Below are positions 360 to 36,887 of a DNA stretch of 64,000 nt, piece by piece. Source of the stretch: a candidate division KSB1 bacterium. Its GTDB lineage: Bacteria; Zhuqueibacterota; Zhuqueibacteria; JANLFK01; Oleimicrobiaceae. The notes beneath the pieces were generated by a model. The model was given only the letters and a program-made list of their open reading frames with translations. It was not told where the DNA came from and did not search any database. The stretch is from contig JANLFK010000016.1 of assembly GCA_024655945.1 (NCBI GenBank), positions 1 to 64,000 on the forward strand, read 5' to 3'. A program made the position numbers and the translations under genes. Numbering within the stretch: position 1 is the first letter of the stretch; every line of letters starts with the position of its first letter.

Positions 360-3300
360 ATGAGGAGGAGACTCGCCTTAGTTGGTATGATGCTGGCGGC
401 GTGCGGTCTGGTCTTCGCCGGTACGACCGGCAAGATCGCGGGAGTGGTGACCGACGCCGAGACCGGCCAACCACTCCCAGGGGTGAACGTGGTTATCGAG
501 GGCACGACAATGGGCGCCGCCACCGCCCTCGATGGTCACTACGTAATCCTCAACGTCCCACCTGGCGTCTACACCCTGCGCGCATCCATGATCGGCTACA
601 CCACTGTGACTGTCACCGACGTGCGGGTCAAGATCGACCTGACCACCACCGAGGATTTCAAGCTTTCGCCGGAGACCCTCATGGGCCAGGAAGTGGTGGT
701 GGTGGCTGAACGTCCGGTGGTCCAGGTGGACGTGGCTGCCTCGCAAAAGAATGTCACTGCCAGCGAAATTACTGCTCTGCCAGTGGCCAAGGTGACCGAT
801 GCCATAGGTCTGCAGGCCGGCGTCACCTCTGGGCTGGGCATTCGTGGCAGCGGCGCCGACCAGGCCATCTTCATGGTCGACGGCGTGGTGCTGCGGGATG
901 AACGCGACAACCGCCCAATTACTGGCGTGCCACTCAGTGCCGTGCGGGAGGTTTCGGTGCAAGTAGGTGGGTTTAGCGCCGAGTACACCAACGTCCGCTC
1001 CGGCGTGGTCAACGTGGTGACGCGGGAGGGCGACCCGAAAGGGTACAGCGGCACGGTCACATTCAAGATCAGGCCCCCCGGACCCAAACACTTTGGTATC
1101 TCCCCTTATGACCGCAATTCCTACTGGCTTCGTCCCTACCTGGACGATGCGGTCTGCTGGACGGGCACAAAGAACGGCGCCTGGGATGCCTACACCCAGC
1201 GGCAGTATCCAGAGTTTGACGGCTGGAACAAGATCTCGGTGCTCACCCTGCAGGACGACGACCCCAGCAATGACCTCACCCCCCAGGGGGCCCAACAAGT
1301 CTTCCTCTGGGAGCACCGCAAGCAGGGCGATATCAAAGATCCCGACTATCTGTTTGACGCCGGCTTCGGTGGCCCGGTGCCCTTGGTCGGCAAGTACTTG
1401 GGCAACCTTCGCTTCTTTGCCTCCGGCCGCCGCGAGGAGGAGCAGTACCTGATTGAGCTGTCTCGCAAATCCATCTTGGATCAAAGCTTCATGTTGCGGA
1501 TGTCGTCGGACATAACGCCCAGCATGAAGCTTTCGTTTATCGGGCTCTACGGCGAGACGTACGCGGTCTCATCCAGCTTTTCGGGCGGTACTTCCTACTT
1601 CGAGACGGCCGAAGGAATCGCCGGGGAGATGACTACGGGCAGCTTCACCGTTCCCACGCGCTATTACACCAACATCTACTGGTCGCCGACCTCGCGCTTC
1701 TACCACACCGCCACGCTCAAGTTCACCCACGTGCTGAGCCCCAGCACCTTCTACGAGGTGCAATTGAAGCGGCAGGGCAAGAAGTACTACACGCGGCCGG
1801 GACGCTATCGGGACACATCGAAGCTGTACGAGGTGTTCCCCGGCTACTACTTGGATGAGCGGCCGTTTGGGTTCTCCGAGGAGCCGATCTTCGGCATCGA
1901 CGGCGTGTTCATCATGGGTGGGCCGGTGAGCGTATCGCGGGACTACAGCCGCCTGGCAACCTACACGGCGCGCGCCGACCTCGTCAGCCAGGTGGATCGC
2001 CGCAATCAGGTCAAAGTCGGCACCGAGTTTGTCTACGACCAGTTCAAGATGTCCTTCGGCCAGTTCAACGCCTACCTGCCTGAGGGGAACACCTGGACGC
2101 GCGTCAACCAGAACCCCTTCCGCGGCACCTTCTACGTGACTGACAAGATTGAGTTCGAGGGCTTTATCTCCAACCTTGGTCTGGTGCTGGACTACAGCAA
2201 CCCGAACGGCAACTGGTTTGATGTGGATGCCTACGACCGTGGCTTCTTCTCCCAGGCTTACCGGGAGGAGCGGGAGGCGCACTACAAGACCAAGAAAGCC
2301 GAGACGCGCTGGACGTTAAGCCCGCGCTTGGCCATTTCCCACCCGATTACGGCAAGCTCCAAGCTCTACTTCAACTATGGCCACTATCGGCAGATGCCGA
2401 CCTCCGAGCGATTGTATCGGGTGCAGCGCTCGGCCATCAACGCCGTCGACTACTTCGGCGACCCCACTATCCCGTTGGCGAGGACGGTCTCCTACGAGCT
2501 GGGCTATGACCACGCCTTGGGCAGAGACTACCTCCTGCACCTGTCGGCTTACTACAAGGACATCACCGACGAGGAGTACTGGGTCCGCTATCTGAGTTTC
2601 GATGGCAAGGTCAACTACTACAAGCTGACCAACAATGCCTACGAGGACATCCGCGGCTTTGAGGTTGACCTCACTAAGCTGTGGGGGAGGTGGTTGACCG
2701 GGGACATCAACTACGAGTACCGGGTAGAGACCTCCGGGCAGTTCGGCCGGGGGTACATGTACGAGAACCCTGCCGACCAGCGCGAGTACGAGCGAAGGAA
2801 CCCCGAGCAGTACAAGCCACGGCCACGGCCGCGCTTCAAGGCGTACGTGGACCTGCACACGCCTACCGACTATGGCCCGGCGCTCTTGGGGCAGAAGCTG
2901 TTGGGCGAGTGGCACCTCAACCTGGTCGGCCGCTGGACTGCCGGCAGCTGGTTTACCTGGAACCCGAACAACGTGCCCGGCGTCACCTACAACGTGCGGT
3001 GGAAGGATTACTACAACCTGGATTTGAAGCTCTCCAAGCTCTTCCCCATTGGCAGGTTTGATGTAAAGCTCTTCGTGGATATTTACAACGTGTTCAACAT
3101 CAAGCGCTTCTCCGGTGTCTCGCACGTCGACGTGTTCGACTACAACTACTACATGCAGTCTCTCCACCTGCCGAAGGACATCGGCGATCCCCTGGGTTAT
3201 TCGTACATCCCGGGCAATGACCGGCCGGGCGATTATCGCAAAGACGGGGTCGCGTTCCAGCCGATGGAAGCTGTGTCGGACATGAAAGACATCAGGAAGC

Positions 3301-3503
3301 TCGACCCGCATGTCATCTACTACGATCTGAGCAGGAAGAACTACTTCGAGTGCATCGGTGGGCAATGGGTGATGGTGCCTGAGCCGAAAATCAAGAAGTT
3401 GCTCGATGACAAGGCCTACATCGACATGCCGAACCAGGCGCACTTTACCTTCCTCAACCCGCGCAGCGTCTTCTTCGGCATCACCATTGACTTCAGGCTG
3501 TAG
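360..3503 (+). CDS. SusC-like TonB-dependent outer-membrane receptor (module A)
   Basis: Outer-membrane receptor expected to import a ligand using TonB/ExbBD energy; the ligand is unknown. The protein is 1047 aa. It has a signal peptide (about 1-21), a carboxypeptidase-regulatory-like beta-sandwich (about 22-105, with GVVTDAETGQPLPGVNV and GHYVILNVPPG), a TonB-box-like GQEVVVVAERP, a plug (about 120-230, IRGSGADQAIFMVDG) and a long barrel ending in FGITIDFRL. I chose ATG 360 because AAGGGAG (344-350) sits 8-9 nt upstream; the GTG at 351 overlaps it. Residues DDAVCWTGTKNGAWDAYTQ form a Cys-containing segment shared with the receptors at 8179 and 30599. No susD gene lies nearby; instead a secreted protein, a PorV-like barrel and a TIG lipoprotein follow closely. 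Family assignment is firm, substrate unassigned. Confidence 0.93.
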   Translation: MRRRLALVGMMLAACGLVFAGTTGKIAGVVTDAETGQPLPGVNVVIEGTTMGAATALDGHYVILNVPPGVYTLRASMIGYTTVTVTDVRVKIDLTTTEDFKLSPETLMGQEVVVVAERPVVQVDVAASQKNVTASEITALPVAKVTDAIGLQAGVTSGLGIRGSGADQAIFMVDGVVLRDERDNRPITGVPLSAVREVSVQVGGFSAEYTNVRSGVVNVVTREGDPKGYSGTVTFKIRPPGPKHFGISPYDRNSYWLRPYLDDAVCWTGTKNGAWDAYTQRQYPEFDGWNKISVLTLQDDDPSNDLTPQGAQQVFLWEHRKQGDIKDPDYLFDAGFGGPVPLVGKYLGNLRFFASGRREEEQYLIELSRKSILDQSFMLRMSSDITPSMKLSFIGLYGETYAVSSSFSGGTSYFETAEGIAGEMTTGSFTVPTRYYTNIYWSPTSRFYHTATLKFTHVLSPSTFYEVQLKRQGKKYYTRPGRYRDTSKLYEVFPGYYLDERPFGFSEEPIFGIDGVFIMGGPVSVSRDYSRLATYTARADLVSQVDRRNQVKVGTEFVYDQFKMSFGQFNAYLPEGNTWTRVNQNPFRGTFYVTDKIEFEGFISNLGLVLDYSNPNGNWFDVDAYDRGFFSQAYREEREAHYKTKKAETRWTLSPRLAISHPITASSKLYFNYGHYRQMPTSERLYRVQRSAINAVDYFGDPTIPLARTVSYELGYDHALGRDYLLHLSAYYKDITDEEYWVRYLSFDGKVNYYKLTNNAYEDIRGFEVDLTKLWGRWLTGDINYEYRVETSGQFGRGYMYENPADQREYERRNPEQYKPRPRPRFKAYVDLHTPTDYGPALLGQKLLGEWHLNLVGRWTAGSWFTWNPNNVPGVTYNVRWKDYYNLDLKLSKLFPIGRFDVKLFVDIYNVFNIKRFSGVSHVDVFDYNYYMQSLHLPKDIGDPLGYSYIPGNDRPGDYRKDGVAFQPMEAVSDMKDIRKLDPHVIYYDLSRKNYFECIGGQWVMVPEPKIKKLLDDKAYIDMPNQAHFTFLNPRSVFFGITIDFRL

Positions 3504-3544: not shown

Positions 3545-5620
3545 ATGAGACGAATCGCACACTGGCTCGGGGTGGCGTTGCTGGTGCTCGTGCTGGTACC
3601 GGGCCCAGCGCGCGCCGACGAGACAAAGTGGATGGCGGTCGGCATGCTGCACGACTGGTTCTCCAGTGCTGGCTGCGAGATCGAAGTGGGCCGGCGCCAC
3701 CTGGTCCCCGACCAGCAGGATGGCCTGCGCTGGCCTGCGCAGTTCCGCTACCAGGACTGCAAGGCAGCCAAGGCTCTGTGGATCGGGGCGACCAACTACC
3801 CGGATCCATTGGTGGGGGTGACGTTCAACTACAAAGTCGTCCACTGCGGCCCGCGGGTGCTCAACGAAGAGAGCGAGTTCATGCCCGTCACCTTCAAGAT
3901 GTACGGGAAATTCGAGCGGCCCTTGGTCCTGGTGGACGGCATTCCCGGGGGAGCGATCGACTATCTCGATTTTGTCGATGAAGTAGACCCGAACCTGGTT
4001 GCCGATCGGGTGCTCTACAACGAGGTGAACACCGGCATCGGTATCACCGAGAAGCGCACCATCTACGCCTTCAGCCAGCAGCACCACAACAACTACTTCA
4101 TCTACGACTATGTGTTCAAGAATACCGGCATTGTGGACACCAAGGGCACCAAGCACGATCTGACGCTGGAGGGCGTGGTGTTCTTTTTCCAGTACCGGTA
4201 CGCGCCATGCCGCGAGGTAGGGCCGTACGGCTACTACTGGATGCCCCAATCCTCCTCCTGGGGGCACAACGCCATGAACGACAGCATGATGGTCTATGAC
4301 CCCCAGACGGGCGAAGGCTATCTGTCGCTGTACACGTGGCACGGCATCCACTCCAAGGCGGGGTTCGACAACATTGGCGCGCCCGATATTCGGCCAAATG
4401 GGGACGGCCGTCTTGGGGCCGCCCAACATGTGGGCATCGTGGTGCTCCATGCGGACAAGTCGGCCACCGCCAAGTCGCATGACCCGGCGCAGCCCACCAC
4501 CACGCAGTTCCTCGGCTCGGACGTGCCTATCACCTCTGGCAACGACGCATTCAACCCTGGTAAGATGGCCGAAGAGTACGCGGCGATGACCGCCGGTCAC
4601 CCGGCGAAGATGCATGCCGACGCGGTAATGGAATCCGGCCAGGCTGCCGATATCTGGGGGTCGACGCCGGGTGGCTTCTCCCACTGCGCGGGATTCGGCC
4701 CCTACACCATGGCGCCCGGCGACAGCATCCACATCGTCATCGCCGAGGGCGTGGCAGGACTGAGCCGAGATAAGTGCATAGAGGTGGGGGCAAAATGGTT
4801 GGCTGGGGGCAGCGGCCCCTTCCCGCTCCCGGACGGCTCCACAACCAGCAATCGCGATGAGTACAAGGACAAGTGGGTGTTTACCGGTCGGGACTCTTTG
4901 TTTAAGACCTTCCAGCGGGCGATCATGACCTACAAGCTGAACTACAACATCCCGCACCCACCGCCGCCGCCAAAGATCTTCGAGGTGACCGGTGGCGGCG
5001 ACCGTGTGATTCTGAAATGGTCCAACGAGCCGGAGTCGTGGCCGGGCTTCGCGGGGTATCGGCTGTACAGGACCATCCATGTGCCGGACACCACGTATCA
5101 GCTCATCTTTGCCTGCGGCCCGGGGACCGACCATCCGCAGATCGTGAATGAGTACAACGATGTTGGCGCCGTGCGTGGTTTCGACTACTACTACTACATC
5201 ACCAGCGTGGATGACGGCTCGCGCAACGTGACCCCTGCCAACCCGCCTGGGCCGCTGGAGAGCAGCATGTTCTACACGGGCACCAACGAGCCAGTGCGCT
5301 TGAAGCGGCAGGCGGGCAAGAGCCTGGCGGACATTCGCGTGGTGCCCAATCCGTACAACATTCGCGCGCGCGACTTGCAATACGGCTACGGTGCGCCAGA
5401 CCGCATTATGTTCCTGGACATTCCCCCGGTGTGCACCATCAAGATTTTCACAGAGCGGGGCGACCTGATCGAGACCATCGAACACACCGATGGCAGCGGC
5501 GATGCGGCATGGAACTCCATCACTTCGTCCCGGCAGGTTGTGGTTAGTGGCGTCTACATCGCCTACTTCGAGACACCTGACGGCCAGAGCACCTACAGGA
5601 AGTTTATCATCATTCGTTAG
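3545..5620 (+). CDS. Secreted module protein with FN3-like domain and PNPYN-type sorting domain (module A)
   Basis: 691-aa exported protein of unknown function, paralogous to those at 11263 and 33788. It has a signal peptide (about 1-25, ending ARA|DE), a large N-terminal domain (about 30-460), a fibronectin-III-like domain (about 475-575) and a C-terminal domain opening with RVVPNPYNI and ending YRKFIIIR. Motifs shared by the three paralogues include FSQQHHNNYFIYDYVFKNTG and GRLGAAQHVGIVVLH. The C-terminus resembles a T9SS type-A sorting domain but has VPNPYN where classical ones have YPNPFN. It starts 41 nt after the receptor, with a GGAAGGG ribosome site. Inference: a surface-exposed partner of the receptor, perhaps filling the role SusD plays elsewhere. 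I recognise no enzyme motif. Confidence 0.85.
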   Translation: MRRIAHWLGVALLVLVLVPGPARADETKWMAVGMLHDWFSSAGCEIEVGRRHLVPDQQDGLRWPAQFRYQDCKAAKALWIGATNYPDPLVGVTFNYKVVHCGPRVLNEESEFMPVTFKMYGKFERPLVLVDGIPGGAIDYLDFVDEVDPNLVADRVLYNEVNTGIGITEKRTIYAFSQQHHNNYFIYDYVFKNTGIVDTKGTKHDLTLEGVVFFFQYRYAPCREVGPYGYYWMPQSSSWGHNAMNDSMMVYDPQTGEGYLSLYTWHGIHSKAGFDNIGAPDIRPNGDGRLGAAQHVGIVVLHADKSATAKSHDPAQPTTTQFLGSDVPITSGNDAFNPGKMAEEYAAMTAGHPAKMHADAVMESGQAADIWGSTPGGFSHCAGFGPYTMAPGDSIHIVIAEGVAGLSRDKCIEVGAKWLAGGSGPFPLPDGSTTSNRDEYKDKWVFTGRDSLFKTFQRAIMTYKLNYNIPHPPPPPKIFEVTGGGDRVILKWSNEPESWPGFAGYRLYRTIHVPDTTYQLIFACGPGTDHPQIVNEYNDVGAVRGFDYYYYITSVDDGSRNVTPANPPGPLESSMFYTGTNEPVRLKRQAGKSLADIRVVPNPYNIRARDLQYGYGAPDRIMFLDIPPVCTIKIFTERGDLIETIEHTDGSGDAAWNSITSSRQVVVSGVYIAYFETPDGQSTYRKFIIIR

Positions 5621-5672: not shown

Positions 5673-6731
5673 ATGGAAAAACGCATGGTCAGTCTGTTGA
5701 CGGTGCTGCTCGTCGTGGCGCTGAGCGCAGTGACGAGCACTGCGGCTAACAAGAAGTTGGCCCAGACAGGATTTCAGTTCTTGAGCGTGCCCACCGAGGC
5801 ACGGGCGGCGGCTATGGGCGAGGCCTTTACCACCGTTGCCGGCTACTCGGCCTCCATGCTGTACAACCCGGCCAACATGGCGCGCGTTAACTCCCTGGTG
5901 GATATCTCCATCAGCCAGAACAAGTGGATCGCGGACATCAACCACATGTCCGGCACGATCGCGCTCAACCCCTGGCGGGGTGAATATGGCGTGCTGGGCT
6001 TCAGCCTGCTGGCAGTAGACTATGGTGAGTTCTTGGGCACCATGGTCGACCCCACCACCGAGAAGGGCTATATCGACACGGAGACCTTCACCCCTTCGGC
6101 CTTGGCGGTGGGCGTGGCCTATGCGCGCTCGCTGACTGACCGCTTCTCTGTAGGTGGGCATGTGCGCTACTGCTACCAGAAGTTGGGCAGCAGCACAGTG
6201 CCGGTCGGCGATGTCTCGGCAGGGGTCACCGAGAAGGTGGACAACTTCAAGGACGTGCTGGCGTTCGACTTTGGCACACTGTATCGCACTGGGTTCCGCA
6301 CCTTGGCTTTCGGCATGAGCGTGCGCAACTTCTCGCAAGAGATCAAATTCCAGAAAGAAGGCTTCCAGTTGCCTCTCACTTTCAGGATCGGGGTATCCAT
6401 GGAGGTGTTGGAGCTTTTCCTGGGCAAGAATGACATGCATAGCCTCCTCGTCTCGGTTGACGCAAGTCACCCCCGCGACTACCCCGAGCAGCTGAGCGTG
6501 GGTGCCGAGTACACCTTCATGGGGTTGCTGGCGCTGCGAGGAGGCTACACCACTGGCTACCGCCACACCGAGGAGGAGAAAGGGAAGTACGGCGACCCAG
6601 ATCGCGGGCTCAGTCTTGGTTTCGGCGTGCAAAAGGAATTTGGCAACCACTTGATCGCCCTCGACTACGCCTACATCCCCTTCGGTGTGTTCGATGCGGT
6701 GCAGCTGATGTCGTTCCGCTTGGCGTACTAA
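5673..6731 (+). CDS. PorV/PorQ-family outer-membrane beta-barrel protein (module A)
   Basis: 352-aa protein with a signal peptide (MEKRMVSLLTVLLVVALSAV) and the family's hallmark N-terminus: AQTGFQFLSVPTEARAAAMG, then a Tyr-Asn-Pro-Ala segment (SMLYNPANMA). The rest looks like a FadL-like barrel with many aromatic-terminated strands and ends MSFRLAY. PorV is the T9SS shuttle that carries sorting-domain cargo to the PorU attachment complex. ATG 5673 was chosen over upstream in-frame codons because CAAGGGAG lies 9 nt before it and the signal peptide starts there; the longer frame would overlap the preceding gene by about 130 nt. Its place between a sorting-domain protein and a lipoprotein suggests a module-specific shuttle. 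A closely similar paralogue is at 35874. Confidence 0.88.
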   Translation: MEKRMVSLLTVLLVVALSAVTSTAANKKLAQTGFQFLSVPTEARAAAMGEAFTTVAGYSASMLYNPANMARVNSLVDISISQNKWIADINHMSGTIALNPWRGEYGVLGFSLLAVDYGEFLGTMVDPTTEKGYIDTETFTPSALAVGVAYARSLTDRFSVGGHVRYCYQKLGSSTVPVGDVSAGVTEKVDNFKDVLAFDFGTLYRTGFRTLAFGMSVRNFSQEIKFQKEGFQLPLTFRIGVSMEVLELFLGKNDMHSLLVSVDASHPRDYPEQLSVGAEYTFMGLLALRGGYTTGYRHTEEEKGKYGDPDRGLSLGFGVQKEFGNHLIALDYAYIPFGVFDAVQLMSFRLAY

Positions 6732-6780
6732 GCCGAGTCGGTGAGAAATGCCGGACGTGCCGAAACTCAGGAGACGCACC

Positions 6781-7980
6781 ATGGATGCGAGATACTCCAG
6801 GCTCTTTGCAGTGCTGGCGATGGGAGTGGTGACGGTGCTGCTCGTGGGGTGCGAGGCGGAATACCCGGAGAGCCTCTACAACCCCAACTTCCAGGGCAGG
6901 CCGACGCCGGTCATCACCAGCATCATCCCCCCCGATAGCGCCTTGGCAGGCATCGGGCAGATCATCATCAAGGGGGAGAATTTCTCTCCGGTGATGGAGG
7001 AGAATTTCGTCTACTTTGGCAAGACGCAGGCAGAGCTGGTCTCGGCGAGTGCCACGGAGTTGCGGGTCAAGACGCCGAACGTGACCGGCGACTCGCTCAA
7101 CGTCAAGGTGGCGGTGCATGGCGCCCTCCTTTTTAGCAACGTGGTTAAGTACAAGCTGCTGACCGCCATCTGGGATTGGGGTGCCTTCTTAGCCGCCGAT
7201 GACCCCTGGGGCATCACCTGCGATGCCGACGAGAACCTGTATGTCGACCTCACTACGAGGAACATCGACAGGGTGACCAGCGACAACCTCCGCTCGACCT
7301 ATGGCACGGTGCCATTTGTCAAGGGCACCGGTATGAAGATGGGGCCAGGCGGCTATCTGTACGTGGCACGGACGACCACGGCTCTCTATCGCATCCCCCC
7401 GGGCGGTGGCGCTGCGGTAAAGTGGGTAGACGCGCCGGGCAAGGTCTACGACTTTGACTTTGCCCCCTCCAAGTCGATGTATGCCGGCGGCGATGGCGAC
7501 TTCTTGTACCTCATCAAGCCGGACGGCACCGGCAGCAAGGTGGCCAACTACCGCAAGGTGTACATGCGGGCCGTGCGCGTGTTCGACGGATATGTGTACG
7601 TGGGCGGCAGGGATTCCACAGGCCAGCAGCACATCTGGCGCAACCAGATCCTCGCCGACGACCAGGTCGGCCCGACGGAAGTTTACTTTGCCTGGAGCGC
7701 GAAGGTCGATCCCACTTCGCAGGTCTATGCCTTGACCTTTGCCCAGGACGGCGACATGTACGTGGGCACCGACCATGCTGCCGGCATCATGATTGTCCAT
7801 CGCGATGGCTCCTTCGAGCCACTGTACGAGGGCCTGCTTAAGCCGTACGTCTATTCGCTGGCTTGGGGGACGAGTTCTTACCTCTACGCCAATCAACGGA
7901 ACGACACCGACCCAGCCAAAAAGAGGATGTTGAAGATCAACGTACTGAAGCAGAGCGCCCCGTACTACGGGCGTGAGTAG
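6781..7980 (+). CDS. IPT/TIG-domain and propeller surface lipoprotein (module A)
   Basis: 399-aa predicted lipoprotein: the N-terminus runs to a good lipobox (LLVGC, Cys about residue 24). An IPT/TIG immunoglobulin-like domain follows (about 38-120, TSIIPPDSALAG and IIIKGENF), then an NHL-like beta-propeller (about 130-395) with repeated GPGGYLYV and PGGGAAVKW blocks, ending APYYGRE. In Bacteroidota glycan loci, TIG/NHL lipoproteins commonly accompany SusC/D pairs as surface binding proteins. ATG 6781 has AGGAGA 6 nt upstream; an in-frame ATG at 6748 lacks a ribosome site. The paralogue at 13384 shares the same architecture. Inference: ligand-binding lipoprotein working with the receptor. Confidence 0.87.
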   Translation: MDARYSRLFAVLAMGVVTVLLVGCEAEYPESLYNPNFQGRPTPVITSIIPPDSALAGIGQIIIKGENFSPVMEENFVYFGKTQAELVSASATELRVKTPNVTGDSLNVKVAVHGALLFSNVVKYKLLTAIWDWGAFLAADDPWGITCDADENLYVDLTTRNIDRVTSDNLRSTYGTVPFVKGTGMKMGPGGYLYVARTTTALYRIPPGGGAAVKWVDAPGKVYDFDFAPSKSMYAGGDGDFLYLIKPDGTGSKVANYRKVYMRAVRVFDGYVYVGGRDSTGQQHIWRNQILADDQVGPTEVYFAWSAKVDPTSQVYALTFAQDGDMYVGTDHAAGIMIVHRDGSFEPLYEGLLKPYVYSLAWGTSSYLYANQRNDTDPAKKRMLKINVLKQSAPYYGRE

Positions 7981-11208: not shown

Positions 11209-11262
11209 GTCTGGGAAGCCAGGACGAAAGCTATGGAGAACCCGAAGCATAGGGAAGGTCAC

Positions 11263-20161: not shown

Positions 20162-20199
20162 AGCGGTAACATGTGTCTTTAAGAAGTGAGGAAATGGAC

Positions 20200-26897: not shown

Positions 26898-27013
26898 GCC
26901 GTTTGTGCGCAGATTGGGCAGGCGAGGGGGGCCGACGCGTGCGGGAGTTCGGTGCGCAGATGGGCCTGGTTGCGAGGTTCAGGACAGAGAGCAGAAGGAG
27001 GAGGCAGTTGCTC

Positions 27014-28120
27014 ATGGGGCGCGTGCTTGGATTGGCTGTCCTGGGGGGCGTTCTCATGCTCTTGGGGCTGGTCGGTTGCGCGGCCTTGCTGCCGGCAAGA
27101 AAGCCGTCTCTTAGCAAACAGGAGCTGGACGTGGCGGCACGTGTGGGCATCAGCGCCGAGCAGCTTCTGCGCATGCAAAAGACGCCACTCTCTCGCTTCA
27201 CAGAGCGGGAGGTCGACCTCTACCTGCGCTATCTCAGCGAGATGGAGCCAGACCTGCGCCTGCGCGTGCAACACTTGGCACGGAAGATGGTGGGCCAACC
27301 GTACCAGATTTTCCTTCTCGGCGAGTTTCCCTTTGAAATCTACGACCCCGATCCGCTCTTCAGCCTGCGCAAGAGCGACTGTCTTGTCTTCGCCGAGCAC
27401 ATATACGCCATGGCCCTGGCCTGGGACTGGCCAAGCTTCATGGCGCTCTTGCAGAGGATCCGCTACAAGGACGGGCGCATCGGCATGCTCACCAGGAACC
27501 ACTACACCGAAGCCGACTGGGTGGTGAACAACTCCTGGCTGGTGCAAGATTTCACTGCCGAGCTGGTGGGAGACCGCGCCGTGCCCGTGACCTCAGTGAT
27601 CGACCGCGCGCGCTTCTTTCGGCGATTCGGCATCGGCCAGGAAATCCCGCTCCAGGAGCTCAGCTGGTCCTACATCCCTTATGAACTCTTGCCGGAATTC
27701 ATCGATCGGCTGCAGCCCGGTGACTTTGTCAACATTGTGCGGGGCAACCAGGATGGCCTCTACGTGGGGCATGTGGGGCTCATCACCCGCAGCGCAGACG
27801 GCACAGTCAATCTGCTTCACTCCACGCACCCGCGGGTGGTAGAGGAGCCTCTCATGGGGCTTTACCGGGAAGCACCGGCGTTGCGCGCCGCCAGGGAGAA
27901 GGAAAACCGGCGGATCATGGCGCGCAACCGCAAGATCCAGGAGCACAACGAGCGCGTACGAAGGACCGGCAAAGGAAAGGAGAAACCGCTCCTCCCTGTC
28001 AAGCCCTACTTCTACGGGTTTCGCTTCTATCGCCTCAGGACGGATGCCCTTGGCGAGTTGCGCCGCCTGGATGGGCCGGAGGCCCCGCGCGTGCAGTTTG
28101 TGCCGCATTCAAACCTCTGA
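27014..28120 (+). CDS. DUF1460 NlpC/P60-like lipoprotein amidase
   Basis: 368-aa lipoprotein (MGRVLGLAVLGGVLMLLGLVGC, lipobox LVGC). DUF1460 proteins are NlpC/P60-superfamily cysteine hydrolases; a Bacteroides member has been characterised structurally as a cell-wall amidase. The nucleophile is probably Cys123 in RKSDCLVFAEH and the base His253 in YVGHVGLI; WVVNNSWLVQDFTAEL is another family block. ATG 27014 has GGAGGAGG about 9 nt upstream; the open frame runs back into the previous gene without a signal sequence, so the longer start is unlikely. The charged C-terminus (about 295-330, KENRRIMARNRKIQEHN) is unusual and may be a flexible tail. It belongs to the surrounding cell-wall set. Confidence 0.87.
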   Translation: MGRVLGLAVLGGVLMLLGLVGCAALLPARKPSLSKQELDVAARVGISAEQLLRMQKTPLSRFTEREVDLYLRYLSEMEPDLRLRVQHLARKMVGQPYQIFLLGEFPFEIYDPDPLFSLRKSDCLVFAEHIYAMALAWDWPSFMALLQRIRYKDGRIGMLTRNHYTEADWVVNNSWLVQDFTAELVGDRAVPVTSVIDRARFFRRFGIGQEIPLQELSWSYIPYELLPEFIDRLQPGDFVNIVRGNQDGLYVGHVGLITRSADGTVNLLHSTHPRVVEEPLMGLYREAPALRAAREKENRRIMARNRKIQEHNERVRRTGKGKEKPLLPVKPYFYGFRFYRLRTDALGELRRLDGPEAPRVQFVPHSNL

Positions 28121-28300
28121 GCCGCTTGCCGTGGGCAGACGGTGGCGCGAGCGCGGCAGGGGGCATTCGACCCGGGTAACTCCAACCTGGCTGCCTTCAT
28201 TGGGCTCAAGCCATCGATGTGGCGCCATGGACACGCAACCCAATTTGATGCCACATTGGCGGCGCAGACTCGGAGACGCGACGCACCCGGAGGAACGGCT

Positions 28301-30319
28301 ATGCGAAGAGTCGGCCTGTTTCTGTCCATTTTGCTCCTTTTTGCCGGCACTGTCGAGAGGGGAGTGGGGCAAACACAGACCTACCCCAAGCGCCTCAAGC
28401 GTTCAGAGAGCTTTTTGGGCATCCACTTCGATTTTCACGCGGGGGACGATTGCAAGGAAATCGGCAAGTACGTCAGTCGGGAGATGGTCGAGTACATCAT
28501 CGACACGGTAAAGCCGGACTATGTGCAATGCGACTGCAAGGGCCACCCCGGTGTCTCCAGCTACATGACCAAAGTCGGCCATCAGGCCCCGGGTTTTGTC
28601 TTGGACCCCCTCCGCATCTGGCGGGAGGCGACTGCCGAGCGCGGCGTGGCGCTCTATGTGCACTACTCCGGTGTGTGGGACGAGAAGGCCGTGCAAGCTC
28701 ATCCCGACTGGGCATGTGTGAATAACAAGGGGGAGGCGAGCAAGCAAAAGACCTCAGTCTTTGGGCCCTATGTGGACCAGCTCCTCATCCGCCAACTCAA
28801 AGAGTTGGCCGACGAGTATGGCATCGATGGCGTCTGGGTGGATGGGGACTGCTGGGCAGTTGAGTCCGATTACTCGCCCCGTGCGCTGGAGGCCTTCAAG
28901 GCAAAAACAGGGATCGCCGAGGCGCCCAAGTCACCCGAGGACCCACACTGGTTTGAATTCTTGGAGTGCCAGCGCGAGGGCTACCGGAGCTACCTGAACC
29001 ACTACGTCACCGAGCTCCATGCGCACCGCCCCGAGTTCCAAATTGCCAGCAACTGGTCTTTCACTTCTTTCATGCCGGAGGCGGTGAGTGTGCCTGTCGA
29101 TTTTCTTTCCGGCGACTATCTATGGCGGAACAGCGTCAATTCGGCGCGCTTCGAGGGGCGGGTGATGGCACAGCAGGGCAAGCCATGGGACCTGATGGCC
29201 TGGAGTTTTACCTGGACGGACCAGCTCTACAGCACAAAGTCTGTGCCCCAACTGCAGCAGGAAGCAGCCATTATCCTGGCATTGGGCGGAGGATTCCAGG
29301 CCTACTCTCCCCAGAAGCGCGACGGTTCCATTCGCCGGTGGCAGATGCGGGTGATGGCCGAAGTGGCACAATTCTGTCGCGCGCGCCAGGAACTTTGCCA
29401 CAAAGCCGAACTCGTGCCGCAGATCGGGTTGATCCTCTCCACTTCCGCATTCTACCGGGAAAGCCCAAAGCCGTTTGCCGGTTGGACTGAGGAGGTGAGC
29501 GGCATCAAAGGCATCCTCCAATGTCTTCTGGATGGCCAGCACGTCGTCGACGTTGTCATGGAGCATCACCTGCGGCAGCGCGCGCGGCAGTACCCGCTGC
29601 TCATCTACCCGGAATGGAGCTACATCGACCCAGAATTCAAGGCGTTGCTCCTGGAATACGTCGCCAGCGGCGGGAGGCTGTTGGTCATCGGGCCCAGGGC
29701 TGCTAAGCTCTTTGAGAAGGAGCTGGGGGTAACCTGTGAGGGCGAGCCGCAGAGGCGCGTCAACGGACTGGCGTACGGCGGGTTTCTGGCAGGCATCAAC
29801 TCCGAGTACCAGCCGGTTCAACTCGGTCCAGGAGTTCGCCCATTTGGCGAAATCTACGAGAACAATGACTTTTTCGGCGAGCCGGCCGTTGCGGCCTCGA
29901 TTGCCGACTATGGGCAGGGACAGATCGCCGCGGTCTACCTGAACCTTGGCGAGCGGTACATGAATTTGGCGACTACGGTCAGTCGCGACTTTCTCAGCGC
30001 CTTGGTCCGTGAACTCTTTCCTTCCCCGCTCGTGGAGGTCACCGGTTCGCATAACGTGGATGTGACCGTCAGCCGCAAGGAGGGCAGACTGTTGATCAAT
30101 CTGGTCAACACTGCCGGTCTCCACTCCGATAGCAGGGTGAGCGTGTTCGACCAGATTCCGGCCGTGGGCCCGCTGACCGTGAGCGTGCGGCAGGCCAGCA
30201 AGCCGAAAGCGGTAAGCCTCATGCCATCGGGCATGAAGTTGCAGTTCCACTTCCGGGACGGCAAGCTTACGCTGACGGTGCCGAGGCTGGAGATTCACGA
30301 GGTCGTGGCGTTGGAGTGA
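28301..30319 (+). CDS. Secreted TIM-barrel glycosidase-like protein with GATase-like domain
   Basis: 672-aa exported protein (signal peptide about 1-26, LFLSILLLFAGTVERGVGQ). The N-terminal half resembles GH29/GH42-type and Hypothetical glycosyl hydrolase TIM barrels: LGIHFDFHAGDDCKEIG, VALYVHYSGVWDE and IDGVWVDGDCWAVESDY, where an Asp in DGDCW may be the nucleophile. The second half (about 430-560, PLLIYPEWSYIDPEFKALL, GGRLLVIGPRAAKLFE) looks like the class-I GATase-like or trimerisation domain of GH42-type beta-galactosidases; a small beta-sandwich ends the protein. GGAGGA lies 6 nt before ATG 28301. There is no sorting domain, unlike its neighbours. Exact family and substrate are unresolved. 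Confidence 0.75.
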   Translation: MRRVGLFLSILLLFAGTVERGVGQTQTYPKRLKRSESFLGIHFDFHAGDDCKEIGKYVSREMVEYIIDTVKPDYVQCDCKGHPGVSSYMTKVGHQAPGFVLDPLRIWREATAERGVALYVHYSGVWDEKAVQAHPDWACVNNKGEASKQKTSVFGPYVDQLLIRQLKELADEYGIDGVWVDGDCWAVESDYSPRALEAFKAKTGIAEAPKSPEDPHWFEFLECQREGYRSYLNHYVTELHAHRPEFQIASNWSFTSFMPEAVSVPVDFLSGDYLWRNSVNSARFEGRVMAQQGKPWDLMAWSFTWTDQLYSTKSVPQLQQEAAIILALGGGFQAYSPQKRDGSIRRWQMRVMAEVAQFCRARQELCHKAELVPQIGLILSTSAFYRESPKPFAGWTEEVSGIKGILQCLLDGQHVVDVVMEHHLRQRARQYPLLIYPEWSYIDPEFKALLLEYVASGGRLLVIGPRAAKLFEKELGVTCEGEPQRRVNGLAYGGFLAGINSEYQPVQLGPGVRPFGEIYENNDFFGEPAVAASIADYGQGQIAAVYLNLGERYMNLATTVSRDFLSALVRELFPSPLVEVTGSHNVDVTVSRKEGRLLINLVNTAGLHSDSRVSVFDQIPAVGPLTVSVRQASKPKAVSLMPSGMKLQFHFRDGKLTLTVPRLEIHEVVALE

Positions 30320-30598: not shown

Positions 30599-33500
30599 AT
30601 GAAGCTTATTACTAAGGCACTTGTGACGCTCCTTGTCGGCGGGATGGCGTGCGTCTGCCTTGCAGGCACCACCGGGAAGATCGCCGGTACTGTAATCGAC
30701 AAGGAGACAAAGGCGCCGCTTCCGGGCGTCAACGTGGTCATCGAGGGTACGACCATGGGGGCGGCCACCAACCTGCAAGGCTACTACGTGATCCTGAACG
30801 TCCCACCTGGCACCTACACCCTGCGCGCCTCCATGATCGGCTACACGCGGGTCACTGCTACGCAGGTGCGGGTGAGCATCGACCAAACCACGACCGTGGA
30901 CTTTCAACTGCAGCCGGAGACGCTGATGGGGCAGGAGGTGACGGTGGTCGCCGAGCGGCCGGTAGTGCAGAAGGATGTCTCCGCCAGTGTGGCCAGCTTG
31001 AACTTCAAGGAGATCGAGGCGCTGCCCATGGTGCGGGTCGCGGAGGTGGTGGGATTGGAGGCAGGCGTCATCGGGCTCACCATCCGCGGCGGTGGCAGCG
31101 AACAGACCAACTTTGTCGTCAACGGCTTTTCCCTGCGCGACGAGCGGACTTTCCAACCCTACACCGGCATCAGCTACACCTCCATTGACGAAATCAAGAT
31201 TCAGACGGGCGGCTTCAGCGCCGAATTCGGCAACATCCGCTCTGGGTTGATAAACGTGGTGACCAAGGAAGGGAGCAGGGACAAGTACAGCTTCGGCTTC
31301 TTGGGGAGGTACCGCCCACCTGGCCCCAAGCATTTCGGGCACGCCCCCTACTCCCGCGACTCCTACTGGATCCGCCCGTATGTGGATGACGCCGTCTGCT
31401 GGACGGGAACCAAGAACGGCGCTTGGGACGCGTACACGCAGAAGCAGTTCGTCGAGTTCGAGGGGTGGAATGCGGTTTCGGCCAAGACCTTGGCAAACGA
31501 TGACCCCAACGACGACCTCACCCCCGCTGCTGCCCAACAAGTCTTTTTATGGGAGCACCGGCGCATTTTGGAAGTGAGGGACCATGACTATGACGTAGAC
31601 ATGAGCTTCGGCGGGCCGGTACCCGTGGTGAGCCAGTTTCTTGGTGACCTGCGCTTCTTTGCCTCTTATCGGCGCACGCGCGAAATGTACGTGGTGCCCC
31701 TTTCCACCGACTGGTACCGCGACTACCATGGGCAGCTCAAGCTGACCTCAGACCTGAGGCCCGGCCTGAAGCTCATGGTAGAAGGGATGATGGGTGGCGA
31801 GAACGGCACCAATGACAACAACTCAGGCCTGCCCGGCATCTTCCGCAGCCCGGAGGGCATTGCCGACGCCCTGAGCAACGGCCCCAAGTACATTGACGGC
31901 CGCATGTTCGGCGACGCGTACTGGTGTCCGTCTACCTACAAGCGGAACAGCGTCGGGGCCAAGTTGACCCACGTACTCAATCCAGCCACTTTCTACGAAA
32001 TAACGCTGCAGCGCTACCACACCAGCTACGACACCAATCCCGGGCGGGCACGCGATACCTCGCGCGTCTACCTGTTCGGCAACAACTATTGGGTGGACGA
32101 GGCACCATTCGGCTACCAGCCGGCCCCGAGCACCGGCATCGTGGGCTTGCGCATGGGCGTAGGCATGAGCAACTCGCGCGACAGCAGCAAAGTCACCGTC
32201 TGGTCGCTACGTGCGGACTTTACGAGCCAGCTCAATCGCCACAACAATCTGAAGACCGGCGTGGAGTTTGTTTACACCGACAACAAAGTCAACTATGCCT
32301 CGGTAGACAAGTTCCTGCCCAGCGGTCGGTCAAAGTCCAAATGGCACACCTACCCGGTGCGCGGTGCGGTTTACGTGCAGGACAACCTGGAATTCGAGGG
32401 GATGATTGCTAACGTGGGCCTGCGCCTTGACTATTCGCACGCCGGCGGCGAGTGGTACGTCTACGATCCGTTCACCCGTGCGTTTTCAGCGGAAAGGTCT
32501 TTGGGCATCGACACGCTGCTGGCCAAGGAGCCTACCAAGCGCATTCTCGAGCTCAGCCCACGGCTGGGCGTGGCTTTCCCCATCACGGTCAACAGCAAGC
32601 TGTACTTCAACTACGGCCATTTCCGGCAGTTGCCGCTGCCCGAAAACCTCTTCCTGCTGCGCCGGTTCACGGACAACAATGCCGTCACCAGGATCGCTGA
32701 CCCCAACAACCCGCTGCCCAGGACGATCGCCTACGAATTGGGATATGAGCACAGCTTGTTCAATCAGTTTCTGTTGCGCTTGGCGGGGTACTACAAAGAC
32801 GCCTCCCTGCAGTCGCGGCTGGTCACGTATGTCAGCCGGGATAACAAGGTCAACTACAGTGTTACCAAGCCCTATTCCTATCAAGACACGCGTGGCTTCG
32901 AGTTGACCCTGCGCAAGAATCGTGGTCAGTGGGTGCAGGGCTTTGTCAACTATACCTACGACGTGACCACCGCCGGCAATTTTGGCTTCGGCACGTACTA
33001 TGAAAACCCGGCCGAGCAACGGCGCTACGAACGCGAGACCCGCTCCCACTATCAGGAGAAGCCGGTGCCGCGGCCGTATTCGCGCGCCAATATCGACTTT
33101 TTCACGCCGCAGGAATTTGGCCCCGAGGTCCTCGGCCTGTCGCTCCTCGGCGACTGGCGCTTGAACGTGCTGGCGGTGTGGCGCTCCGGCTACCACTTCA
33201 CCTGGACCGGAGGTGGAACGATACCGGGCATCCAGTACAACGTGCAGTGGCGTGACTACTACAACGTCGACCTCCGTCTGAGCAAGAACTTGCGCCTCGG
33301 CTTTGCTAACGTGGAGTTTTTTGTGGACGTGTACAATCTTTTCAATATCCGCTACATGACCCAATATGGCTTTGTCGACGGCAAGGACTATGAGGCGTAC
33401 ATGAAGTCGCTCCACCTGCCAGCGGGTATTGGCAACCGGCTTGCCTACGGAAATATCCCAGGCAACGATAGGCCTGGCGACTACCGCAAAGATGGCGTGA

Positions 33501-33751
33501 AATTTCAGCCGATGGAATTTGTGCCGAACATGAACGACGTCAGCAGGCTTAACCCTCAGGTCATTTACTACGACAAGAGCAGGGACAACTTCTTCGAGTG
33601 CATCGGTGGGCAATGGGTGATGGTGCCAGAGCCGAAGCTCAAGAAGTTGCTGGACGAGAAGGCCCACATCGACATGCCGAACCAGCAGTACTTCACGTTC
33701 CTGCATCCGCGGGACGTGTACTGGGGCGTGCGGCTGTGGGTGAACTACTAG
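30599..33751 (+). CDS. SusC-like TonB-dependent receptor (module C)
   Basis: 1050-aa receptor with a signal peptide (MKLITKALVTLLVGGMACVCLAG), a carboxypeptidase-regulatory-like domain (about 22-105, GTVIDKETKAPLPGVNV), GQEVTVVAERP, a plug (about 115-230, LTIRGGGSEQTNFVVNG) and a barrel ending VYWGVRLWVNY. Its N-terminal 110 residues and C-terminal 100 are much closer to the module A receptor than to module B. A 36-nt stretch (33592-33627) is identical to 3344-3379. ATG 30599 has GGAGGAG 8 nt upstream; the frame is open to 30434, but that start would precede the promoter -10 box. Substrate unknown. Confidence 0.93.
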   Translation: MKLITKALVTLLVGGMACVCLAGTTGKIAGTVIDKETKAPLPGVNVVIEGTTMGAATNLQGYYVILNVPPGTYTLRASMIGYTRVTATQVRVSIDQTTTVDFQLQPETLMGQEVTVVAERPVVQKDVSASVASLNFKEIEALPMVRVAEVVGLEAGVIGLTIRGGGSEQTNFVVNGFSLRDERTFQPYTGISYTSIDEIKIQTGGFSAEFGNIRSGLINVVTKEGSRDKYSFGFLGRYRPPGPKHFGHAPYSRDSYWIRPYVDDAVCWTGTKNGAWDAYTQKQFVEFEGWNAVSAKTLANDDPNDDLTPAAAQQVFLWEHRRILEVRDHDYDVDMSFGGPVPVVSQFLGDLRFFASYRRTREMYVVPLSTDWYRDYHGQLKLTSDLRPGLKLMVEGMMGGENGTNDNNSGLPGIFRSPEGIADALSNGPKYIDGRMFGDAYWCPSTYKRNSVGAKLTHVLNPATFYEITLQRYHTSYDTNPGRARDTSRVYLFGNNYWVDEAPFGYQPAPSTGIVGLRMGVGMSNSRDSSKVTVWSLRADFTSQLNRHNNLKTGVEFVYTDNKVNYASVDKFLPSGRSKSKWHTYPVRGAVYVQDNLEFEGMIANVGLRLDYSHAGGEWYVYDPFTRAFSAERSLGIDTLLAKEPTKRILELSPRLGVAFPITVNSKLYFNYGHFRQLPLPENLFLLRRFTDNNAVTRIADPNNPLPRTIAYELGYEHSLFNQFLLRLAGYYKDASLQSRLVTYVSRDNKVNYSVTKPYSYQDTRGFELTLRKNRGQWVQGFVNYTYDVTTAGNFGFGTYYENPAEQRRYERETRSHYQEKPVPRPYSRANIDFFTPQEFGPEVLGLSLLGDWRLNVLAVWRSGYHFTWTGGGTIPGIQYNVQWRDYYNVDLRLSKNLRLGFANVEFFVDVYNLFNIRYMTQYGFVDGKDYEAYMKSLHLPAGIGNRLAYGNIPGNDRPGDYRKDGVKFQPMEFVPNMNDVSRLNPQVIYYDKSRDNFFECIGGQWVMVPEPKLKKLLDEKAHIDMPNQQYFTFLHPRDVYWGVRLWVNY

Positions 33752-33787
33752 TGGCCTTGGTCTCAACCGTACGTCGAGGGCAAAGAG

Positions 33788-35848
33788 ATGAGCGCCTGGA
33801 CTAAGAGAAACTCTTGGCTAGTGGCAGTGCTCAGTGGGGTACTGGCACTGCCAGGGGCCGTGTTCGGCCAGTACGACATTCGCTGGATGGCCGTGGGCTC
33901 GCTGCACAATTGGTACTCCAGCATCGGCTCCGAGATCGAGCACGGCTTTATGAAGGTGCAGCAGTACGGCATGCAATGGCCGGCCATTTACCAGTACCAG
34001 GACATGCAGGCGGCCAAGGCGTTGTGGATCGGCTGCAAGAACTTTACCGACCAGAACGGCATGTTCTTTCCGTACAAGGTGGTGCACGTGGGGCCGCGCG
34101 TGTCTGGCGGTGGCGAGTTCTTTCCCATCAAGATGGAGATGGTAAGCCGGTTCGAGCCACCGGTGGTGTTTGTGGATGGCGCACTTTCGTACGAGAAGCC
34201 TGTGGACAACAACCGCGTCGATCCGAGCATGAAGGCGGACAGGATGATCATCAATGTCACCAACTGCCAGCTCGGCATCACCATGACGCGCAAGATTTTC
34301 CAATTCAGCAACCCCTATCACGACAATTACATCGTCAGTGACTACACCTTCACCAACACGGGCAACGTGGATGACGACCCGGAAATCGAACTGCCCAATC
34401 AGACCCTGGACGACGTCTACTTCTTTTTCCAGTTCCGGTGGGCGGTTTGTCGCGAGACCCGTTATCTCATCGGCAACGCCACCGGCTGGGGCATAAACCT
34501 GATGCTGGACGCCCGAGGTGATGGCGTAAAGGTCGACCCACCGAACGAGAACTTCCGCTGTCAGTTCGGATGGCACGGCAAGTATCCGCCGTTTACGTTG
34601 TACGACAACATCGGGGCGCCCATCTGGAGCCCGCAAGGCTCAGCGGGTTACATTGGGGCGGCCGACACTGTGGGGAGGCTCGGCGCTGCGCAGTTCATCG
34701 GCGTGGTGACGCTGCACGCTGACCACTCGCCCACTGACCCCAGCGACGACCCCATGCAGCCATCCACCACCACCTACGAGTCCTCCGACGCGCCGAACAC
34801 TTCGCAGAACGATCCGTTCAACATCGCGCGCATGGAGTCGGAGTACGGCTGGATGTCCAAGGGGCACATGTCGCCGCGGCACTGCGACAAGGTGGAGCCC
34901 AGCGGCGATTTCGCCTCGCCTACCGGTGATCCGGCACTGGGCACCCCGGGTGGCTTCTCGGCCTGCATCGGCTATGGCCCCTACACGTTGCGTCCGGGGG
35001 AGAGCATCCACATTGTGTGGGCAGAAGCGGCCGCCGGGCTGAGCCGGGAGATGTGCATCGAGATTGGCAAGCAGTACAAGAAGGGCATCATCGATGCGCG
35101 TACCAAGAATCAGTGGGTGCTCACCGGTCGCGACTCGCTATTCCAGACCTTCCGGCGCGCCATCGCCAACCATAACTCCGGCTACACCATGGCCGAGCCG
35201 CAGTTCCCACCCAGCGAGGTGTACATCAGCGGTGGCGGTGACCGCATCAACTTGGAATGGAAAGTCTACGACGATGCGCCTCGTCCGCTGAGCTTCGAAA
35301 TATGCCGTGCCAAGGGAAGGTATGACAGCACCTACACCCTCGTCTACCGCGCTGGACCGGATGAGCGCTCGTTCAAGGACAGGCAGCTGGAGCGTGGGAC
35401 GTCGTACTATTACTACGTGGTCGCCGTAGGGCCAGAGATGCCGGGCAACCCGGCGTTGAACATTCCCGCCCACACGCTGAAGAGCAATCGTTACTACACG
35501 CAGGCCTACGACCCTACGAACTTGAAGCGGCCCGCAGGAGAGAAGCTGAGCGATATCCGGATTGTGCCGAACCCGTACAACATCTCCGCAGACCCCAACA
35601 ATCTGCTCTTCCCGGGTGAAGGGGACAAGATTGCTTTCTTCAACATCCCGGGCGAATGTACCATTCGCATCTTCACGGAGAGTGGCGAGCTCATCAAGAC
35701 CATCGAGCACACCGACGGGACGGGTGATGCCTATTGGAACTGCACCACCTCCTCGAACCAGGTGATTGTGAGCGGCGTCTACTTAGTGGTGGTCACCGAC
35801 CACAAGACTGGCAAGAGCGCGGTGGAGAAATTGGTGGTTATCCGGTAA
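33788..35848 (+). CDS. Secreted module protein with FN3-like domain and PNPYN-type sorting domain (module C)
   Basis: 686-aa third paralogue of the 3545 and 11263 products. It has a signal peptide (about 1-27, LSGVLALPGAVFGQ), conserved blocks FSNPYHDNYIVSDYTFTNTG and GRLGAAQFIGVVTLHADHS, an FN3-like domain (about 475-570) and a terminal domain beginning RIVPNPYNI and ending AVEKLVVIR. Its C-terminus is longer by a loop (SADPNNLLFPGEG) and has VVVTDHKTGK in place of the FETPDGQ of the other two. The ribosome site is weak (GCAAAGAG). It lies 36 nt after the receptor. Function unknown; co-occurrence in all three modules is the main clue. Confidence 0.84.
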   Translation: MSAWTKRNSWLVAVLSGVLALPGAVFGQYDIRWMAVGSLHNWYSSIGSEIEHGFMKVQQYGMQWPAIYQYQDMQAAKALWIGCKNFTDQNGMFFPYKVVHVGPRVSGGGEFFPIKMEMVSRFEPPVVFVDGALSYEKPVDNNRVDPSMKADRMIINVTNCQLGITMTRKIFQFSNPYHDNYIVSDYTFTNTGNVDDDPEIELPNQTLDDVYFFFQFRWAVCRETRYLIGNATGWGINLMLDARGDGVKVDPPNENFRCQFGWHGKYPPFTLYDNIGAPIWSPQGSAGYIGAADTVGRLGAAQFIGVVTLHADHSPTDPSDDPMQPSTTTYESSDAPNTSQNDPFNIARMESEYGWMSKGHMSPRHCDKVEPSGDFASPTGDPALGTPGGFSACIGYGPYTLRPGESIHIVWAEAAAGLSREMCIEIGKQYKKGIIDARTKNQWVLTGRDSLFQTFRRAIANHNSGYTMAEPQFPPSEVYISGGGDRINLEWKVYDDAPRPLSFEICRAKGRYDSTYTLVYRAGPDERSFKDRQLERGTSYYYYVVAVGPEMPGNPALNIPAHTLKSNRYYTQAYDPTNLKRPAGEKLSDIRIVPNPYNISADPNNLLFPGEGDKIAFFNIPGECTIRIFTESGELIKTIEHTDGTGDAYWNCTTSSNQVIVSGVYLVVVTDHKTGKSAVEKLVVIR

Positions 35849-35873
35849 GCGGATCCAAGCATAGGGTAGTGCC

Positions 35874-36887
35874 ATGAAAAGGTCGCTGATTGCAGTCCTG
35901 CTGCTGGCCGGCTGGTGCCTGAGCGCCCATGGCCAGACACAAAAGTTGCAGAAGTTAGCGCAGACCGGCATGAAGTTCCTGAGCGTGACCACCGACGCCC
36001 GTGCCAGCGCCTTGGGCGAGGCGGTCACTGCGCAGGAGGGGTACGCGGCGTCCATGTTCTTCAACCCGTCAGGATTGGCCAGCATAACGTCCTTAGCCGA
36101 TCTGTCCTTTGGCCAGGTAAATTGGATCGCAGACATCAAGTACTTCTATGCCAGCGCCGCCCTGAACCCCTGGCGCGGCAAGTACGGCGTGGTGGGCATC
36201 TCGTTCCTTTCGGTGGACTATGGTGATTTCAAGGGGACCATCCGGGACGTAAGTGAGAAGGGGTACAAGGACACCGGCATGTTCAGCCCCGGCGCCAGGG
36301 CGGTGGGCATCGGCTATGCGCGGGCCTTGTCCATGAAGTTCTCGGTTGGCGGGGTGGTCAAGTACGTGTCCCAGGATCTCGGCAGCAGCATCGTCGGCTT
36401 TGACAACCAGGGTGGCTATCGCCAGAAGCAGTATGAAGAGGGGGTGGTGGCCTACGACTTTGGCATTCTCTATCGCACCGGGTTCCGCAGCCTCAACTTT
36501 GGCATGTCCGTGCGCAACTTCTCCCAGGAGGTTCGCTACGAGACGGAAGGCTTCCAGCTACCGCTGACCTTCCGCATCGGCTTGGCGATAGACCTTTTGG
36601 ACGTGTTCCCTGCATTTCGCCTAGGCCAGGATGAGTTGCTGCTGTCGGTGGATGCCACGCACCCGCGGGACTACCCCGAGCAGGTTGGCTTCGGTGCCGA
36701 GTATCTTCTCATGAACACGTTGGCCCTGCGCGTGGGGTATTCCTTTCCCAATGACGAGCACGGGTTCACCGTGGGCTTTGGTGTGCAGCAGTCCCTGTCG
36801 CAATTCCGATTTGGCCTCGACTACGCTTACACGCCGTTTGGGCTCTTTAACGAGGTCCACCGCTTTTCCATCAGGTTGTCCATGTGA
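35874..36887 (+). CDS. PorV/PorQ-family outer-membrane beta-barrel protein (module C)
   Basis: 337-aa paralogue of the 5673 product with a signal peptide (MKRSLIAVLLLAGWCLSAHGQ), the family block AQTGMKFLSVTTDARASALG, FFNPSGLAS and a barrel that shares GFRSLNFGMSVRNFSQEV and the DATHPRDYPEQ turn with module A's protein. PorV-type proteins ferry T9SS cargo or, in some relatives, act as FadL-like pores. It begins 25 nt after the secreted protein and ends module C; no TIG lipoprotein follows. A perfect terminator lies just downstream. Confidence 0.88.
   Translation: MKRSLIAVLLLAGWCLSAHGQTQKLQKLAQTGMKFLSVTTDARASALGEAVTAQEGYAASMFFNPSGLASITSLADLSFGQVNWIADIKYFYASAALNPWRGKYGVVGISFLSVDYGDFKGTIRDVSEKGYKDTGMFSPGARAVGIGYARALSMKFSVGGVVKYVSQDLGSSIVGFDNQGGYRQKQYEEGVVAYDFGILYRTGFRSLNFGMSVRNFSQEVRYETEGFQLPLTFRIGLAIDLLDVFPAFRLGQDELLLSVDATHPRDYPEQVGFGAEYLLMNTLALRVGYSFPNDEHGFTVGFGVQQSLSQFRFGLDYAYTPFGLFNEVHRFSIRLSM

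Follow-up and report, generated by a model that had tools for sequence, protein, structure and literature searches.

SusD-less TonB-receptor modules with a PorZ-like partner and a PorV-family barrel recur in a candidate division KSB1 genome and in other phyla

What does a TonB-dependent receptor pair with in a genome without SusD? The question arises from the first 64,000 nucleotides of contig JANLFK010000016.1 (assembly GCA_024655945.1; hereafter the window), from a candidate division KSB1 bacterium, where three paralogous modules (A, B and C) begin, at 360, 8179 and 30599, with a receptor gene that is followed each time by the gene of a secreted protein, here termed the partner. The window opens a contig of 93.7 kb, and the genome, of 3.94 Mb, is 97.7% complete; the data are metagenome-assembled genomes (MAGs), open reading frames were called simply, and signal-peptide and lipobox calls are heuristic. 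An original prediction, made from the window, had described three receptor-partner modules, and its description stands: all ten module genes are intact open frames, in the order and with the accessory genes claimed. Module A comprises receptor, partner, a PorV-like barrel and a TIG lipoprotein; B is without the PorV-like gene and C without the TIG lipoprotein. Mutual identity is 47-53% among the receptors, 37-45% among the partners, 52% between the PorV-likes of A and C, and 54.5% between the TIG lipoproteins of A and B. Pfam recognises CarboxypepD_reg and Plug in the receptors, TIG in the lipoproteins, and, above cut-off, PorV in barrel A and PorP_SprF in barrel C; for the three partners it gave no match above cut-off. 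The module genes are the following.

360..3503 (+): receptor A; signal peptide, carboxypeptidase-regulatory-like domain, TonB plug, TonB-receptor barrel; the SusC/RagA model matches the N-terminus only
3545..5620 (+): partner A, 691 residues; signal peptide, beta-supersandwich (~27-465), fibronectin type III (FnIII) domain (~478-560), immunoglobulin (Ig)-like C-terminal domain (~600-691)
5673..6731 (+): PorV/PorQ-family barrel A; frame open from 5490, signal peptide starts at 5673
6748..7980 (+): TIG and propeller-like lipoprotein A; lipobox LVGC
8179..11208 (+): receptor B
11233..13371 (+): partner B, of a second ancient subfamily
13384..14574 (+): TIG and propeller-like lipoprotein B
30599..33751 (+): receptor C
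33788..35848 (+): partner C; best PorZ-like C-terminus among the three (E 1e-8)
35874..36887 (+): PorV/PorQ-family barrel C

Receptor and partner are inherited as a pair

A scan of 84,980 species genomes, seeded on the partner, yielded 79 loci that were kept, from MAGs labelled KSB1, Neomarinimicrobiota, Calditrichota, Ignavibacteria, Melioribacteraceae, Rhodothermaceae and others, with the cultured relative Stygiobacter electus (L133) in the set; since the partner was the seed, adjacency of the receptor is a fair test. These loci hold 109 receptors and 110 partners, and the receptor lies directly upstream of the partner in 103 of the 110 cases (five of the others are cut by the locus edge, two are second copies or fragments); conversely, a partner comes next after 102 of 103 receptors, with a median gap of ~24 bp, and the commonest gene order overall is receptor-partner-PorV-TIG. 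The receptor and partner families have the same tree shape across species (r = 0.89), and swapping partners within a tandem locus worsens the tree fit in 14 of 15 loci. Order, 1:1 pairing and co-inheritance thus characterise the genomic unit, and the secreted protein is the fixed partner of the receptor, as originally predicted; nor does its family occur mostly away from receptors, an outcome the prediction had itself raised. In open-access papers, no description was found of a SusD-less receptor with a PorV-family gene.

The partner family is present in 55 of the 61 genomes of the phylum that were searched; the partner of the closest named relative, the unclassified MAG RSWS12, is 85% identical, and many of the next matches are KSB1. 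A-type and B-type pairs are two old subfamilies that often stand in tandem, and module B without its own PorV is for this reason read as an ancestral tandem arrangement and not as a decayed module. In one locus (L089:6976-11418) two partner genes stand behind a single receptor, and PorV and a further receptor-partner pair come next.

The unit recurs throughout the genome

Searched with a profile built from the three partners, the KSB1 genome has 26 distinct partner-type C-termini; 25 of them lie within 6.5 kb of a TonB receptor gene, 22 downstream on the same strand, a position that ordinary tails of the type IX secretion system (T9SS) take in 5 of 85 cases (Fisher p 1e-14). A PorV/PorQ-family gene follows 96-218 bp after the partner in 21 of 26 cases, and after ordinary T9SS tails in 0 of 85. 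By hand count, 24 of the 35 receptor genes have a partner, including three with the partner upstream; PorV-family genes above the NF033709 cut-off number 28, and three quarters of this family in the genome belong to receptor-partner units. The unit is repeated more than 20 times in this genome and occurs in other phyla, so that its recurrence is far from chance; with its three modules of one window, the original prediction had missed this genome-wide and multi-phylum extent. Across 16 paralogous modules of the genome, correlated distances (r 0.75-0.86, p 0.0002) connect receptor, partner head, partner tail and PorV, and the modules therefore duplicate and diverge as wholes.

Two candidate descriptions fall away. 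The partner is not an ordinary T9SS type A protein, as its sites have zero overlap with the 85 Por_Secre_tail sites and a different gene context; and the TIG lipoprotein, found within this genome in A and B only, is not a universal part. The sole orphan in the genome is a 1425-residue protein with a partner-type C-terminus and no receptor nearby (L042:6423-10700, contig C10). For the long divergent partners Pfam gave nothing above cut-off.

The partner combines a supersandwich head with a PorZ-like C-terminus

A signal peptide, scored as a hydrophobic N-terminus, is predicted in 108 of 108 partners and a lipobox-like cysteine in 2 of 108. The AlphaFold model of partner A, with 104 homologues, is confident throughout (pLDDT 93.9, pTM 0.91); residues ~27-465 form a beta-supersandwich, which Foldseek matches to GH94, GH65, GH116 and related sugar-enzyme domains (probability ~1.0), and an FnIII domain and a high-confidence Ig-like C-terminal domain follow, with no catalytic (alpha/alpha)6 barrel after the supersandwich. 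The best whole-protein fold match in the PDB is PorZ; over their last 70 residues the partner and the PorZ model align, and 7 of 8 scanned partners match. Neither the PorZ-like C-terminus nor the supersandwich had been recognised in the earlier work. Among T9SS substrates, PorZ and PorU keep their tails uncleaved, and these tails remain bound to PorQ and PorV; a review proposes that cognate PorV-like barrels shield tails from cleavage (PMC10202324). Like this attachment complex, the module would have a PorV/PorQ-family barrel that holds an uncleaved C-terminal domain, and the C-terminus and fold of its partner match PorZ best; the module differs in that PorZ and PorU process T9SS cargo, whereas the module head is a supersandwich tied to a receptor. 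SprA is present in 40 of 40 genomes searched, and PorU is present (890 bits). From its fold, its position and the PorV gene beside it, export of the partner by the T9SS is likely.

A supersandwich followed by FnIII is a common build of glycan-acting surface proteins, and the neighbouring genes are wall-degrading (see below); both would also suit a T9SS-displayed subunit that binds or processes glycan near the receptor, neither capping nor touching it. This is rather unlikely, since the strict 1:1 pairing, with the partner directly after the receptor in 103 of 110 cases and closer to it than PorV or TIG, is more than is usual for accessory enzymes, the pair-specific co-inheritance likewise exceeds their usual pattern, and the model is without the catalytic barrel.

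The barrel is of the PorV/PorQ family

Barrel A scores 191.5 bits with NF033709 (PorV/PorQ family) against a cut-off of 90, all 54 scanned PorV-likes match this model at E <= 0.01, and their profile matches solved PorV as its one solved-structure match. Barrel A is below the equivalog cut-offs for PorV and PorQ (83 vs 250 and 89 vs 220 bits) and below that of TIGR03519 for PorP/SprF (24 vs 90.6 bits); barrel C passes Pfam PorP_SprF weakly (26.8 vs 22.3). The top PorV-family match in the genome (C13:72820-73791; 315.8 bits) lies away from any partner and is probably the housekeeping PorV.

A precedent for a cargo gene with its own barrel gene exists in type B T9SS cargo and its cognate PorP/SprF-like barrel (PMC12618676, PMC9143113). 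There, as in the modules, the gene of a shuttle or anchor barrel directly follows the cargo gene, in many paralogous pairs per genome; the module barrels, however, are PorV/PorQ-family and stay under the NCBIfam cut-off for PorP/SprF, the tail resembles that of PorZ rather than type B, and a TonB receptor belongs to the unit. The original proposal that the partner is cargo of the module's own PorV-like shuttle thus gains good support from analogy and linkage (21/26 vs 0/85; 54/54 with the PorV/PorQ model), and the cognate barrel probably retains the partner at the surface, as PorQ and PorV retain theirs.

Two other roles for the barrel were weighed. PorV and FadL share a general fold, that of 14-strand barrels (PMC12611786, with BamG in the FadL family), and the partner tail misses the curated T9SS tail cut-offs, as would be expected if the PorV-likes were FadL-type channels and the partner were periplasmic or exported otherwise, with the T9SS uninvolved; this is very improbable where 54 of 54 tested barrels match the PorV/PorQ model, the sole solved-structure match is PorV, and the partner tail aligns with the end of PorZ, the top fold match of the whole partner. 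In Flavobacterium, adhesins reach their place through type B tails and cognate SprF barrels (PMC12618676), and the linkage of the PorV family to the partner gene could similarly reflect a surface-assembly device, in which receptor and PorV-like barrel export or place the partner as an adhesin or coat protein without nutrient import. We regard this as improbable: TonB plug domains imply energised import, SprF/PorV systems do without a TonB receptor, and the nearby wall-degrading enzymes and lipoproteins fit nutrient uptake.

The receptor is not of the SusC type

To call the receptors SusC-like, as the prediction did, was too strong: with TIGR04056 (SusC/RagA) they reach 59-67 bits against a cut-off of 368, over the N-terminal ~140 residues only, which rules out SusC proper. 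By its domains, the receptor combines a TonB-dependent barrel with a carboxypeptidase-regulatory-like N-domain and stands outside the SusC/RagA family, and the absence of SusD is therefore less paradoxical than had been stated. That absence itself was correctly seen, PF07980 and PF14322 having zero matches across the whole genome; PF07980 also has zero matches in two further genomes of the same genus. Nor is SusD the normal partner in close relatives, the second outcome that had been raised: in an Ignavibacteria MAG, true SusE, SusD and SusC genes (L157:103-5862) are separated by ~20 kb from a module without SusD, which has its amidase alongside, and this SusC, at 658 bits with TIGR04056, is a different receptor from the module's. 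SusD, where present, therefore has a receptor of its own. The partner is not a divergent SusD either, its model being mostly beta and SusD not among the listed fold matches.

The likeness to SusCD lies in the arrangement: a TonB receptor with an N-terminal carboxypeptidase-like domain, a 1:1 partner gene directly downstream, an accessory surface lipoprotein and nearby enzymes. The parts differ, in that the module receptor fails TIGR04056, the genome is without SusD, and the partner is built of beta structure and ends in a T9SS-like tail, whereas SusD is an alpha-helical tetratricopeptide-repeat lipoprotein. A TonB receptor may also work with a surface partner that is not related to SusD, as BtuB does with BtuG and XusA with XusB (PMC10404256, PMC13142918); the module would share this principle, but BtuG and XusB are lipoproteins, whereas the module partner is without a lipobox and has a T9SS-like tail and a PorV-family gene alongside.

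Wall-degrading genes and the likely ligand

Between modules B and C lies a run of genes, listed here, whose peptidoglycan-degrading members (an Amidase_3 protein, a GHL10 hydrolase and an AmiA-like protein, with a DUF5009 protein and a GHL6-like hydrolase) had gone unremarked in the original prediction.

14827..16140 (+): propeller protein with an ordinary T9SS tail (Por_Secre_tail); homologues in 24 related loci, mostly after the TIG gene
16286..19015 (+): Golvesin-C domain protein with T9SS tail; homologue at the same place in the closest relative (L148)
19046..20161 (+): acyltransferase-like membrane protein (DUF5009)
20173..21177 (+): PD40 propeller; in several relatives its gene forms a pair with that of the amidase
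21216..23753 (+): N-acetylmuramoyl-L-alanine amidase (Amidase_3) with Ig domains and a T9SS-type tail
23796..26897 (+): GHL10 glycosyl hydrolase with T9SS tail
26840..28120 (+): AmiA-like amidase/endopeptidase family protein (PF07313); translation probably begins further downstream than the listed TTG
28142..30319 (+): GHL6/fucosidase-like hydrolase

GHL10 stands beside a module, on a confirmed contig, in 18 of 32 related genomes, where chance would give ~0.03 per genome (p ~7e-20); this count leaves out L092, whose GHL10 is on another contig, and the apparent positive L126. Among the 30-odd other loci examined in the KSB1 genome GHL10 has two matches, both weak. Relatives carry amidase, DUF5009, NlpC/P60 and epimerase-family genes near their modules, and one adds NlpC/P60 with SH3, an L-Ala-D/L-Glu-type epimerase (below equivalog cut-offs) and a glucosamine-6-phosphate-deaminase-like gene. 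GHL10, amidase and further wall-degrading genes accompany the A/B/C subtype, so that peptidoglycan fragments are its likely cargo: the ligand we favour, with some reserve, is peptidoglycan glycan or muropeptides freed by the neighbouring amidases and GHL10. For the remaining subtypes of this genome the ligands must be different ones.

The pairing of an amidase with a denuded-glycan hydrolase fits the enzymes between B and C, DigH being a GHL10 protein. DigH is the denuded-glycan hydrolase of Escherichia coli (PMC12288456) and serves cell separation there, whereas the GHL10 proteins of the modules bear T9SS tails and adjoin what would be an uptake unit. In the passages found, a paper on N-acetylmuramic acid (MurNAc) in Tannerella forsythia names no outer-membrane uptake system.

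Elsewhere in the window, a lipoprotein-like Amidase_2 protein of the peptidoglycan-recognition-protein type (54596-55216, minus strand) is a possible further wall-degrading gene outside the modules. On the same strand are a GH92 glycosidase split over two overlapping frames by a frameshift or assembly error (44119-46504; catalytic part 44119-45663, N-terminal part 45395-46504) and a 1104-residue protein with golvesin-C, calcineurin-like phosphoesterase, PQQ propeller and T9SS tail domains (51224-54538).

A model for the unit

From the parts list, its linkage and the folds we infer the transport steps, the contact with the receptor and the cargo as follows. The partner would cross the inner membrane by Sec and the outer membrane via T9SS/SprA, using its Ig-like, PorZ-like C-terminal domain; the cognate PorV/PorQ-family barrel would take it from the SprA translocon and keep it, as PorQ does with PorZ and PorV with PorU, so that it would be anchored through the barrel and not through lipid. 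The supersandwich head, over or beside the receptor, would bind ligand and hand it to the TonB receptor, and the TIG-propeller lipoprotein would act as an accessory surface binder. The partner would in this way do for its receptor what SusD does for SusC, as an unrelated protein arriving by another route; by that analogy it may well deliver ligand to the receptor, and a TonB-dependent uptake unit of receptor, T9SS-exported partner and cognate PorV/PorQ-family barrel is, on balance, the reading we prefer.

Several observations weigh against it. The partner C-terminus scores 14.9 bits as a type A tail against a cut-off of 23, with no type B call, so that the case for T9SS export is made by the fold, the position and the neighbouring PorV gene. 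The supersandwich matches have low TM-scores (0.3-0.4), which makes a sugar-binding role a fold-level hint. Module B and some others are without their own PorV gene and would have to share one. Co-inheritance of PorV with the partner's C-terminal domain (r 0.76) is not stronger than that of receptor with PorV (0.86) and therefore marks the unit, not contact; as proof of direct contact between domain and barrel it was dropped, the signal being module-wide. Finally, 14 of the 32 related genomes are without a verified GHL10 beside the module.

Implications

Tentatively, and with more doubt than for the unit itself, these considerations extend to a large part of the Fibrobacteres-Chlorobi-Bacteroidetes (FCB) superphylum, where the standard TonB unit could be not SusCD but a receptor with a T9SS-exported lid, held permanently by its own PorV-family barrel, in dozens of ligand-specific versions per genome. 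If this is true, TonB uptake and type IX secretion, treated as separate so far, would be coupled; nutrient import would involve the T9SS, and PorV-family barrels would anchor proteins at the surface no less than shuttle them, giving a function to many unexplained PorV/PorQ-family genes in FCB genomes. It would also explain how SusD-poor lineages (0 copies here) run ~35 TonB receptor genes, and would point to a possible way for sediment bacteria to take up wall material of dead cells.

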